DNA of 64,000 nucleotides, from NCBI RefSeq assembly GCF_001039475.1, contig NZ_LELK01000009.1, positions 1 through 64,000 of the forward strand, written 5' to 3'. The notes under the pieces were generated by a model that did not search any database, had not been told where the DNA came from, and saw nothing but the letters and a program-made list of their open reading frames with translations. Both the position numbers and the translations under genes were made by a program. Origin of the DNA: Guptibacillus hwajinpoensis. GTDB lineage: Bacteria > Bacillota > Bacilli > Bacillales > Guptibacillaceae. Positions 27,176 through 62,920 of this stretch are shown one piece after another (the stretch's first letter is position 1; every line of letters starts with the position of its first letter).

Positions 27176-27199
27176 GAACTTGTAAACATTATAGCGAAC

Positions 27200-27331
27200 T
27201 ATCTTCGGGGCAGGGTGTAATTCCCGACCGGCGGTGAAGGATATGCAATTCCTCAAGCCCGCGAGCCTGTTTTTTGGGCAGGATCTGGTGTGATTCCAGA
27301 GCCGACAGTATAGTCTGGATGGGAGAAGATG
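27200..27331 (+). promoter_or_regulatory. FMN riboswitch (RFN element)
   Basis: Contains the conserved RFN blocks in order: TATCTTCGGGGCAGGGTG, ATTCCCGACCGGCGGTGA, AGCCCGCGAGCC, GGATCTGGTGTGATTCCAG, AGCCGACAGTATAGTCTGGATG and the closing GGAGAAGATG. Placed 150 bp before ribU with a terminator in between (27391-27419), so FMN should cause premature termination. Confidence 0.95.
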
Positions 27332-27390
27332 GTGGAGTAGTAAGTTGCTTTCATTTTTCTGGAAAGTGCTTGCTTATTTCCCCATGCCGT

Positions 27391-33769: not shown

Positions 33770-34264
33770 TTAGTTGAGAGATAGCAAAAGACCATGTTCA
33801 CTCATAAATACTTCAATTTGGAGTTTATGATGTTCATCATGCTCAATCAAACCTTTAATATAGCTTGTAAGGCATAGAGGGAATTTATCGATGTAAAACG
33901 TATCAGTCCATTGCTTTCTACCCAATGGTTTAAGGTGCTCAACGACCTTCTGTCTTTCTTTAACTGTTTCATTAATAATCTCATCTTTTGAAAAGCCGGA
34001 ATGAGCATGTGCTGCAGCACTTCTGTTTACTTCCTCTACTGTCGAAGCAAGTCCGGTTAACGATGCACCACTACTAAGATATGAGATTCTTTCTTGCAAA
34101 AGATAGTCATCCCATGCCCTGATATGAGAAATAATCTCAGCAGGTGACCATTTTCCAGGCTTAATTGAGCTAAAAAAGACTTCCTCGCTCATCTTCATTG
34201 CTATTTCTTGTAGCCAGTCCGTTAAAGAAGCATATTCATTTAATACAGAGCGTTCATCTGTCAT
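33770..34264 (-). CDS. DinB/YfiT-family protein
   Basis: 164 aa from the ATG at 34264 (GGAAGGAG 8 nt upstream; frame open 25 codons further, overlapping rsgA). Four-helix DinB fold: KPGKWSPAEIISHIRAWDDYLL (first metal His) and LIEHDEHHKLQIE (HxxxH pair) give the usual three-histidine metal site. Family members include bacillithiol S-transferases. It begins about 30 bp after the rsgA stop and is likely co-transcribed with it. Confidence 0.82.
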   Translation of the reverse strand: MTDERSVLNEYASLTDWLQEIAMKMSEEVFFSSIKPGKWSPAEIISHIRAWDDYLLQERISYLSSGASLTGLASTVEEVNRSAAAHAHSGFSKDEIINETVKERQKVVEHLKPLGRKQWTDTFYIDKFPLCLTSYIKGLIEHDEHHKLQIEVFMSEHGLLLSLN

Positions 34265-34293
34265 CAAATCGACTCCTTCCCTAATTAACAAGC

Positions 34294-35349
34294 CTATCGA
34301 CGATTCTGCCTTGTACGATCCCCTGCTAGCTTCTTCCATTTTTTCTTTTCTTCTAATTGGGCTTTCTTATTTGTTTGTCTTTCAAGAAAAGAGAGTTCAC
34401 GTTGGAATTTCTGGTAGTTACGAAAGCGCCTCAGCTCGAGTTCTCCAACTTGTATCGCTTCTTCAACAGCGCAACCAGGCTCTCCATTATGCTTGCAGTC
34501 TCGGAAGTGACATCCTTCTGCTAGGCTTTCAATATCGTGAAAGCTGTGCGACATATCACTCGCTTCCCATAACTGTAGTTCCCTCATTCCAGGAGTATCA
34601 ATTAAGACACCTCCACTTTCAAGTACAATGAGCTCCCTACTCGTTGTCGTGTGTCTTCCTTTCCCATCTCCTTCTCTAATATCCTGAACGGTCTGAACGT
34701 CAGTTCCGTACAATTTATTAATAAGCGTCGATTTCCCTGCGCCAGAAGAACCGAGTAGAGCAGTAGTTGTACCAATCGATAGATATGATGTAAGTTCATT
34801 AATTCCCGTATCTGTAGCTGAACTCACTACATGTATTGGAACACCTATTGCAATCCCTTCTAGTGCCTCAACTTTCTCTTCTATGCTCTTAGCTAGATCT
34901 GCTTTACTAAGAACAATTACGGGATTAGCTCCACTCTCCCACGCCATAACAAGATAACGTTCAATTCGACCAATATTAAAATCTTGATTCAATGCATTAA
35001 CAAGGAAGACGGTGTCAATGTTCGTAGCTATAATTTGTTCCTCTGTTGTATTACCAGCTGCTTTTCGTGAAAACTTGCTTTTTCTAGGTAGTACATAATG
35101 AATAACTGCTCGCTGATTCTCCTGTGGTGCGATCAGAACCCAGTCTCCCACTGCTGGTAAATCCTCTCGTGAATCTGATTCAAATCTAAATTTACCAGAG
35201 AGCGCTGCCATGTATGTCATCTGTTCTGATGACACCTCATAAGAACCTCTATGTTCTTGTTTAACTCTTGCCGGCTCAAGACCTTCTTTTTTCATTTCTT
35301 GATACGCCTCGTCAAGAAATGAGTTCCAACCTAAATGAAGTAAATTCAA
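34294..35349 (-). CDS. rsgA: Ribosome small-subunit-dependent GTPase RsgA (YloQ/YjeQ paralogue)
   Basis: 351 aa. OB-fold N-terminus (to about 100), circularly permuted GTPase domain: G4 LSKAD (147-151) precedes P-loop GSSGAGKST (200-208) and G3 DTPGM (251-255); the zinc knuckle C280-C285-H287-C293 follows. RsgA releases assembly factors from the 30S subunit. At 351 aa it is longer than the housekeeping YloQ (about 298 aa) next to prkC, so it is probably a second copy. Start TTG with AGGAGG 7 nt before. Preceded by an attenuator-like leader (35386-35627). Confidence 0.9.
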   Translation of the reverse strand: MNLLHLGWNSFLDEAYQEMKKEGLEPARVKQEHRGSYEVSSEQMTYMAALSGKFRFESDSREDLPAVGDWVLIAPQENQRAVIHYVLPRKSKFSRKAAGNTTEEQIIATNIDTVFLVNALNQDFNIGRIERYLVMAWESGANPVIVLSKADLAKSIEEKVEALEGIAIGVPIHVVSSATDTGINELTSYLSIGTTTALLGSSGAGKSTLINKLYGTDVQTVQDIREGDGKGRHTTTSRELIVLESGGVLIDTPGMRELQLWEASDMSHSFHDIESLAEGCHFRDCKHNGEPGCAVEEAIQVGELELRRFRNYQKFQRELSFLERQTNKKAQLEEKKKWKKLAGDRTRQNRR

Positions 35350-35390
35350 TTGTATGCCTCCTGATTAATAAGTCATTTACTGTATAAAAA

Positions 35391-35416
35391 AGAGCCGTAC
35401 TAAACAGCCGGCTTTT
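35391..35416 (-). terminator. Second, weaker terminator-like hairpin in the rsgA leader
   Basis: Minus strand AGCCG / CGGCT with an 11-nt loop followed by CTTTTTTAT, about 40 bp before the rsgA start. Short stem but good T-tract. A further small hairpin (GCATGT/ACATGC, 35428-35443) precedes it. Confidence 0.5.
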
Positions 35417-35453
35417 CAATACAGTTCGCATGTATTAACATGCTAGAAATGTA

Positions 35454-35492
35454 ATAAAACCATGGACAGGAGTGCACAGTCCATGGTTTTAT
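35454..35492 (-). terminator. Attenuator-type terminator in the rsgA leader
   Basis: Minus strand: perfect 14-bp stem ATAAAACCATGGAC / GTCCATGGTTTTAT with an 11-nt loop TGTGCACTCCT. Its 5' arm plus loop (GGACTGTGCAC, 35472-35482 region) is exactly complementary to GTGCACAGTCC inside the upstream leader ORF (35537-35547), so terminator and antiterminator would exclude each other. Confidence 0.65.
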
Positions 35493-35518
35493 ACTTGTTA
35501 ATCAGAAGAAAATCACTT

Positions 35519-35587
35519 CTAATAATGACCCCGATCGGACTGTGCACAATATGCAATTAGCAATAAACGATTATTGAAATTTACCAT
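35519..35587 (-). CDS. Putative 22-aa leader peptide of the rsgA operon
   Basis: Short frame reading MVNFNNRLLLIAYCAQSDRG then HY and TAG. ATG has GGAAAGGGG nine nt upstream and lies about 28 nt after the predicted start of transcription. Codons for Cys-Ala-Gln-Ser contain the segment complementary to the terminator arm downstream, and a copy of UUGUGCA lies beside the ribosome-binding site. This matches ribosome-sensing leader peptides before erm/vml-type genes. No direct evidence of translation. Confidence 0.55.
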   Translation of the reverse strand: MVNFNNRLLLIAYCAQSDRGHY

Positions 35588-35621
35588 AATGCACAACCCC
35601 TTTCCGATACTTGATAAGTCT

Positions 35622-35650
35622 ATTATACTAAAGCCTATATTAATTGCAAA
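35622..35650 (-). promoter_or_regulatory. Promoter of the rsgA leader
   Basis: Minus strand -10 TATAAT (35622-35627) with weak -35 TTTGCA (35645-35650, spacer 17) or TTGCAA (spacer 16). It overlaps the 3' end region of the frameshifted thiolase gene. Confidence 0.55.
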
Positions 35651-35664
35651 TGTTTTCTGACTAA

Positions 35665-36844
<1,180 letters not shown>

Positions 36845-62693: not shown

Positions 62694-62728
62694 CAAAAAA
62701 TCTCCGTCTCTAAATAAGAGACGGAGAT
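62694..62728 (-). terminator. T-box controlled terminator of argS
   Basis: Minus strand ATCTCCGTCTC / GAGACGGAGAT stem followed by TTTTTTG; the antiterminator contains the T-box sequence (62733-62747). Confidence 0.88.
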
Positions 62729-62920
62729 TAACCCGCGGTACCACTCTGGTTGCTCGCTAACGAGCCAGCTTTACTCGATAACGGCGAGTCCGACTGATCC
62801 TACTTCATTCAGAACAGTGTCTTGAAAGTCCGGTTCATGTTTGCTCAGTTGCCGGGCTCCCACCATCCCCGAATCGCTTCATTCTGTTACAAACATTACT
62901 CTCTTTCGCATAGACGATAC
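62694..62920 (-). promoter_or_regulatory. T-box riboswitch for tRNA-Arg
   Basis: The canonical T-box AGAGTGGTACCGCGG is at 62733-62747 (minus strand). Upstream in stem I, GGGGATGGTGGGAGCCCGG and the specifier context GAAC-CGG-A (CGG at 62830-62832, minus strand) indicate the arginine codon CGG. UGGU in the T-box pairs with tRNA ACCA, consistent with a discriminator A. The region 62660-63169 contains this leader, the promoter below and a repeat fragment. Confidence 0.9.

Follow-up and report, generated by a model that had tools for sequence, protein, structure and literature searches.

The rsgA2 gene on the minus strand of a Guptibacillus hwajinpoensis contig (NZ_LELK01000009.1, positions 1 to 64,000, the whole stretch analysed here and called the window) codes for a second RsgA-type GTPase, and a leader lies between its promoter and its start codon. 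The question raised by this locus is what the leader does and which signal it would answer to. From the sequence alone, a first-pass annotation had read it as an attenuator that senses stalled ribosomes, with its own promoter, a short upstream open reading frame (uORF) and a terminator. Our results indicate that the leader is probably a ribosome-mediated attenuator of rsgA2 in which one switch sets two gates, and that rsgA2 is most likely induced when ribosomes stall at or near the start of the uORF.

In the window (all leader coordinates are on the minus strand), a sigma-A type promoter, TTTGCA-17-TATAAT (35622-35650, a 10/12 match in the promoter scan), precedes the leader RNA (35350-35615, the 5′ start being placed from the -10 box). 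The uORF, MVNFNNRLLLIAYCAQSDRGHY, has 22 codons and a stop (35519-35587; ATG at 35587, TAG at 35521-35519) behind a Shine-Dalgarno sequence (SD), GGAAAGGGG (35597-35605); the same frame also appears from an upstream TTG in the open-reading-frame listing. Segment 1 (35589-35599), the candidate anti-antiterminator, overlaps the uORF SD and has as partner segment 2, GTGCACAGTCC (35537-35547), located within the uORF near its end. Segment 2 can alternatively pair, as antiterminator, with segment 3, GGACTGTGCAC (35472-35482), which overlaps the 5′ arm and the loop of T1, a terminator hairpin of 14 bp formed by pairing 3:4 in the computed fold (35454-35492; arms 35492-35479 and 35467-35454). The promoter that the first-pass annotation had named was confirmed, the 22-codon frame and the terminator were found exactly where it had put them, and the exact 11-bp complementarity that it had noted between uORF and T1 (35537-35547 with 35472-35482) was confirmed, a complement of this length being matched in 2/2000 uORF shuffles. 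The UUGUGCA that it had seen beside the uORF SD, pairing with the same uORF segment, is present at 35596-35590, but the helix is longer than stated, with GGGUUGUGCAU paired to GUGCACAGUCC over 11 bp including G-U.

Two further elements, absent from that annotation, belong to the device. T2, a terminator-like hairpin AGCCG/CGGCT with a T6 tract (35386-35413; terminator scan and fold), sits just before rsgA2, with 36 nt between its tract and the gene. The U tract of T1 is poor in the window (TTTTATTACATTTC), and T1 is absent from the terminator scan because its loop is 11 nt. The second element is a spacer behind the uORF, X (35509-35493), which pairs over 16 bp with the rsgA2 SD region (35373-35357, AGGAGG at 35362-35357) or else forms a local hairpin with the bases directly 5′ of X. 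When the window leader is folded in full, X closes the rsgA2 SD. Folding of the 264-nt leader gave z = -6.9, and 0/200 shuffles were equally good.

Upstream regions were taken from 80 GTDB loci and from 30 rsgA2 loci of whole genomes, partly the same genomes. R1, a covariance model built from aligned leaders, was then run on 249 genomes of the order and gave 86 matches at E<1e-3. These precede rsgA2 in 58/58 cases at E<=3.3e-9 (the best bin being cut at 3.4e-9), in 9/11 up to 1e-5 and in 6/17 up to 1e-3, on the same strand and at 23-341 nt from the gene; from the matches between 1e-3 and 0.1, L192-L194 were fetched. Among 117 matches, 102 were used, leaving out those on the opposite strand (L001, L005, L084 and L110), those before other genes (L142-L145 and L147-L149) and weak ones before rsgA2 (L009, L192, L193 and L194). 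The 102 leaders were collapsed to 53 clusters with one representative each. A promoter matching at least 9/12 lies within 60 nt before 46/53 representatives, compared to 6.9 expected from mononucleotide shuffles. In three Fictibacillus loci (L018, L019 and L020), a repeat-like insertion of about 150 nt separates leader and rsgA2.

An ATG after a purine-rich, SD-like stretch opens a uORF of 16-29 codons in 53/53 representatives; R1 itself partly imposes the ATG, but neither the open frame nor the spacing pattern, and the SD was assigned by eye. Of the 53, 40 contain the segment-2 motif. In 36 of these it keeps one frame and lies at a spacing of 41, 44, 47 or 50 nt, a pattern to be expected if indels are constrained to preserve a translated frame; the four motif-bearing exceptions are L033, L080 (a false motif match), L163 and L188. 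The uORF stop falls 7-46 nt past the start of the motif in 39/40, L080 again being the false match. The uORF therefore overlies the antiterminator strand, which is the arrangement needed for ribosome position to decide the fold. AQP or AQS is apparently kept in the Bacillaceae uORFs, in frame in 36/40, and the same bases form segment 2.

The competing helices were examined by a swap test, which sets the duplex energy that a segment reaches with its own partner against the energies with partners taken from other clusters. Pairing 1:2 scored -16.6 kcal/mol with own partners versus -13.0 when swapped, and pairing 2:3 -18.8 versus -14.6, each with 0/5000 permutations as good. Pairs 3:4 and 5:6 also passed, but their arms had been selected for pairing, which is not the case for the 1:2 and 2:3 windows. 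The control pairs 3:5, 4:6, 2:5 and 1:4 were null. A T1-like hairpin was picked in 53/53 representatives, with arms chosen for pairing and a few automatic picks that look wrong or weak (L108, L137, L151, L185, L186 and L189, retained in the swap test). In an alignment of 19 of 28 excised leaders (A1, made with MAFFT), 85.2% of cells in the 2:3 columns are paired, and double changes occur in 13 cells compared to 5.3 in shuffles. The 1:2 and 3:4 columns pair in 74.0% of cells; this figure is low and undercounts 1:2, partly because segment 1 of Pseudalkalibacillus, the window's genus, was aligned two bases out of register. The first-pass annotation had held that 1:2 or 3:4 pairing would terminate and 2:3 would read through, and that loss of the frame and of the complementarity in relatives would speak against it. 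The swap results for 1:2 and 2:3 and the compensatory changes in 2:3 support that reading, and both the uORF and the two helices are kept across the 53 representatives. Judged by these features, the leader is a conserved device of the ribosome-mediated attenuator kind.

The second gate was assayed in the same way, with X and SD windows set by position alone in 22 representatives less than 75% alike. These come from 42 leaders, that is, the 45 in L001-L111 minus L018-L020, where the leader is further off; the 57 leaders above L111 were outside this test. X paired with its own SD region at -19.0 kcal/mol versus -11.1 when swapped (0/10000 permutations), and both controls on the same 22, X against 38 nt beside the SD region and uORF against the SD region, were null. 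The SD core was paired in at least 3/5 bases in 18 of the 21 representatives with a recognisable core, L110 having none. For leaders of type B, an uncontrolled look at X:SD gave candidate helices between -9 and -19, the gene starts there being uncertain. The 2:3 fold places X in its loop, and X of the window leader folds back into a local hairpin with bases at the uORF stop, so that 2:3 should leave the SD open, a topological step that we infer. This hairpin (35525-35501, AGAAG...CUUCU) has variants in relatives of the genus, as seen by eye. A ribosome at the stop codon would open it, and translation to the stop should in this way free X as anti-SD.

Taken together, these results suggest the following mechanism. 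With no ribosome loaded, segment 1, and with it the uORF SD, would pair with segment 2; a ribosome running through the uORF to its stop would instead cover segment 2. Since segment 2 would be occupied either way, 3:4 would pair and T1 would form, and transcripts escaping T1 would have the rsgA2 SD closed by free X. A ribosome held at the start or on the first codons would mask segment 1 and leave segment 2 free. Pairing 2:3 would then exclude T1 and hold X in its loop, from where X could contact the SD only through a pseudoknot; rsgA2 would be both transcribed and translated. Consistent with this, a ribosome footprint over the start codon gave 2:3, counted from 6 expected pairs upwards in RNA not yet extended to segment 4, in 49/53 representatives, compared to 13/53 with the footprint on the stop. 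The trigger would thus be a stalled ribosome, and the stall one at initiation or on the first codons. Its usual cause may be a ribosome-targeting antibiotic or an initiation defect, and RsgA2 may help to clear the blocked ribosome. As leader control of this kind is known for antibiotic-defence genes, RsgA2 is suggested to belong to that defence.

Several observations weigh against this scheme. Free RNA reaches 6 pairs of 2:3 in 44/53 representatives, and in 40/53 its 2:3 exceeds 1:2 in expected pairs; the window's RNA, when free and extended to the T1 loop, likewise folds 2:3 and not 1:2. Stability therefore does not suffice to keep 1:2, which must act by being the first to form. With the start masked, the window leader up to the end of T1 has 12.3 expected pairs of 3:4 versus 1.5 of 2:3, and the complete leader still folds T1, T2 and X:SD. 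Folding of both states, proposed as a check by the first-pass annotation, gave the expected 2:3 in 49/53 masked leaders but not in the complete window leader; since T1 wins there despite the masked start, the window's switch must operate kinetically. The distribution is also incomplete: R1 at E<1e-3 precedes rsgA2 in 73 genomes, yet 144/249 carry the gene, and by eye no leader was seen in L021, L022, L024, L025, L027 (Paenibacillus) and L104, nor in five Ignavibacteria loci (L044-L046, L048 and L072). One R1 match, in G073, precedes a trpE-like gene, and no relevant gene was found behind those in G102 and G225. Finally, the model leaves the role of T2 unexplained, and its opening by segment 4 is not supported.

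A clear T2 was detected by automatic criteria in 33/53 representatives. A tandem-terminator domino, in which 2:3 would free segment 4 to open the 5′ arm of T2, was considered and set aside as unproven, own and swapped 4:5 pairs differing little: -4.24 versus -3.81 (209/5000 permutations, or 389/5000 without T/A runs). In the 33 leaders with a clear T2 the corresponding figures are 125/5000 and 492/5000, and shuffled segment 5 gave -3.5 against -5.6. By eye, 4:5 is striking in some leaders, with 11 bp in L100.

What does the leader control? The rsgA2 gene (34294-35349, minus strand) starts at TTG and codes for 351 amino acids with a PF03193 RsgA_GTPase domain (180.6 bits) and a TIGR00157 score of 176.1 bits (cut-off 100); solved RsgA structures are its top structure matches. 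By homology, the window protein is a complete RsgA-type GTPase, as the first-pass annotation had it in calling the gene a ribosome-assembly GTPase. That annotation, however, took it for rsgA itself. A separate RsgA copy, 33% identical to RsgA2, is present in the same genome, and R1 found no such leader at it; because of this other copy, the window gene is classed as an RsgA paralogue, rsgA2, and not as the housekeeping CpgA/YjeQ orthologue. The housekeeping rsgA directly follows a frame that we take to be the kinase PrkC, the kinase and the gene order being judged by eye. An RsgA match was found in 61/61 relatives searched, compared to rsgA2 at E<=1e-60 in 144/249 genomes sampled from the order. 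Eight of these 249 (G037, G068, G079, G080, G112, G119, G163 and G207) carry two rsgA2-like matches at that threshold; for seven of them the second copy is listed, with 42-50% identity to the window protein. A gene of the DinB_2 superfamily (33770-34339, minus strand, domain search) overlaps the end of rsgA2. The rsgA-dinB operon of the first-pass annotation is nevertheless not a conserved unit, since a DinB_2 neighbour occurs in 21/111 loci, all within the genus.

Upstream of the promoter, a thiolase gene (35665-36844, minus strand) is split into two frames (35852-36844 and 35665-35835) near a six-T run, a frameshift that makes it either a pseudogene or an assembly error. Elsewhere in the window, an FMN riboswitch (27197-27334, plus strand) and a T-box leader (62714-62920, minus strand) reached the Rfam gathering scores.

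Genes resembling rsgA2 were also found in 118 plasmid records from several phyla. Seven were opened, and in two a fosfomycin-resistance gene lies beside the rsgA2-like gene. In a Lysinibacillus plasmid (L197), the gene stands directly before a fosM/fosB-type resistance gene; a record labelled Stenotrophomonas rhizophila (L196) has the same pair together with an attenuator-like leader seen by eye, and is perhaps mislabelled or contaminated. R1 matched none of the seven plasmid stretches. By eye, a short SD-led frame precedes the gene in the Brevibacillus, Stenotrophomonas-labelled, Leptolyngbya, Peptoclostridium and Vibrio plasmids, and no obvious one was seen in the Streptomyces NBC_00162 and Lysinibacillus stretches.

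Other rsgA2 loci carry leaders of another form. In 17 Paenibacillus and Cohnella loci, picked by motif, the uORF plan is similar but the sequence differs: the uORF SD is GAGGCUGAUG or a near variant, segment 2 reads CAUCGGUCUC or a shorter variant with CGGYCU, and the best 1:2 duplexes have energies between -12.4 and -24.3 kcal/mol. Segment 2 falls in frame 0 in 13/17 loci and in frame 1 in 4/17. Leaders of Sediminibacillus, Pontibacillus, Pullulanibacillus, Laceyella and a Clostridium bin have an interval between uORF and gene that can pair with the uORF or, alternatively, with the rsgA2 SD. From these pairings the latter leaders are classed as translational attenuators; 15 loci were inspected for this form, L028, L031, L032, L038, L076, L077 and L079 being less clear, and both this group and the Paenibacillus/Cohnella group were judged without swap control. 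The logic of L052, L053, L058, L068, L069 and L070 is that of the ermC-type translational attenuator, to which the window leader adds a transcriptional gate.

The genes behind the remaining R1 matches bear on the signal. Thirteen matches (1.2e-7 to 7.8e-4) do not precede rsgA2, and all were opened. Seven (G051, G243, G120, G234, G229, G109 and G052) stand before BmrC/YheI-like exporter genes, whose products are 47-100% identical over at least 561 aa to a half-transporter of 585 aa with YheI of BmrCD as its best solved relative (E about 1e-255). Three, of one genus (G059, G096 and G201), precede an ABC-F gene, 94-100% identical and above the ribosomal-protection cut-off. Six class-level matches outside the order (E<=1e-4) divide into three before rsgA2 and three before the transporter. 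The BmrC/YheI-like and ABC-F genes are antibiotic-response genes, and uORF attenuators of this kind guard such genes. A terminator CCATGGGC...CATGG occurs in the leaders L149, L209 and L210 (R1 E between 1.5e-4 and 3.6e-4), which stand before the ABC-F gene, of ribosomal-protection-like type, in three genomes of one genus. In L211 (G073:C7:82134-82233, R1 3.7e-4), the terminator CCATGGGC...CCATGG lies just before the trpE-like gene, named by eye; this is perhaps an ordinary trp leader. In L142, L143, L144, L147 and L148, two terminator-like hairpins are followed, directly ahead of bmrC, by a second short SD-led frame that ends by eye in ESDSG, ELDSG, ELESG or LEGG before the stop; it may add a further uORF layer to the control of bmrCD.

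The closest known systems are the vmlR and bmrBCD leaders of Bacillus subtilis; the comparisons here refer to excerpts of the cited papers. The vmlR leader likewise has an anti-antiterminator holding the uORF, an antiterminator, a terminator and an extra SD-sequestering stem-loop, and is induced by drugs that stall initiating ribosomes (PMC9226507). Its uORF is MIN and its gene codes for an ABC-F protein, compared to 22 codons and an RsgA paralogue here, and its SD is closed by a stem-loop after the terminator, whereas rsgA2 has a long-range helix from the spacer between uORF and terminator (PMC9226507). The bmrBCD leader controls the kind of gene most common among the other targets of R1, but a drug exporter and not a ribosome GTPase, and its terminator lies inside the bmrB coding region instead of downstream of the uORF (PMC4191407). 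In Listeria, too, uORF-based transcription attenuation controls the paralogue of a housekeeping ribosome GTPase, hflXr (rli80); HflXr, however, is a ribosome-splitting factor, and its 14-aa uORF carries an RLR motif absent here (PMC6310831). The RsgA paralogues SCO6149/SCO5211 of Streptomyces coelicolor are among the pairs whose WblC-activated member rises with tetracycline (PMC7157823); SCO6149 may be likened to RsgA2 by analogy, its control being by a transcription factor, unlike the rsgA2 leader (PMC7157823). In the open-licence literature searched, no description was found of attenuation before rsgA, yloQ or cpgA, in agreement with the first-pass annotation, nor of RsgA2 as such; in the excerpts of PMC6912228 the relevant words occur in other contexts only. 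Within that literature, the RsgA-paralogue target and the two-gate layout, with the anti-SD spacer in the antiterminator loop, are new.

Could the same switch serve a physiological signal? Immature or slow 30S subunits stuck on the uORF SD might induce rsgA2, so that a shortage of 30S maturation would call up a 30S-maturation GTPase. Such homeostasis is possible but rather unlikely. It would fit with segment 1 being the uORF SD itself and with a model in which segment 2 becomes free only through a ribosome detained at the start or on the first codons. It would also fit with the uORF sequences: codons 2-9, pooled over the 53 representatives, cover 19 amino acids, and the Paenibacillus/Cohnella segment 2 is read in two frames, so that peptide-specific arrest is not required; on these grounds such arrest was set aside, although in Bacillaceae it may contribute. 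However, BmrC-like and ABC-F genes make up most of the other genes that carry such leaders, which points to a drug response, and rsgA2 is an accessory gene, while the housekeeping copy of the same genome has no such leader.

Biosynthetic attenuators of the trp and his type share the uORF and the 1:2/2:3/3:4 plan, and the one weak R1 match before a trpE-like gene recalls them. That this uORF senses the charging of one tRNA is nonetheless very improbable: no single-codon run occurs in the uORFs of the 53 representatives, rsgA2 is not biosynthetic, and a search of the leader against Rfam cis-regulatory families, T-box included, gave at a relaxed threshold only matches below the gathering score and none near it. 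We give as little credit to T1 ending a constitutive small RNA, with rsgA2 read from elsewhere and the complementarity incidental. T2 would suit it, since this second hairpin also lies between promoter and gene in the window and is clear in many relatives, but across clusters the segments of 1:2, 2:3 and X:SD match their own partners better than swapped ones, other lineages have a translational counterpart of this logic, and only 36 nt separate the T2 tract from the gene in the window. Scarcely any weight goes to a protein, RsgA2 itself or a regulator, binding the leader beside a decorative uORF; the hairpins do have a defined sequence in Bacillaceae, yet Paenibacillus/Cohnella leaders share with these the uORF-centred plan and not the sequences, and uORF length and frame are conserved.

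Ribosome-mediated attenuation of rsgA2 with two gates is thus the reading that we retain. A wider proposal, which we put forward tentatively and consider somewhat doubtful, is that RsgA2 represents an unrecognised, widespread and inducible family for ribosome rescue or tolerance acting on 30S, whose genes would repeatedly have acquired uORF sensors of stalled initiation, the Bacillaceae switch setting both a terminator and a long-range anti-SD gate. The repeated sensors would be two transcriptional types, one translational type and the uORF-bearing upstream regions seen by eye on the Leptolyngbya and Vibrio plasmids. If this is true, RsgA2 would be the small-subunit counterpart of HflXr and of the ribosome-protecting ABC-F proteins. 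The presence of sequence-unrelated uORF attenuators before a second RsgA leads to the prediction that a paralogue of a 30S-assembly GTPase would serve as an inducible response to blocked ribosomes.
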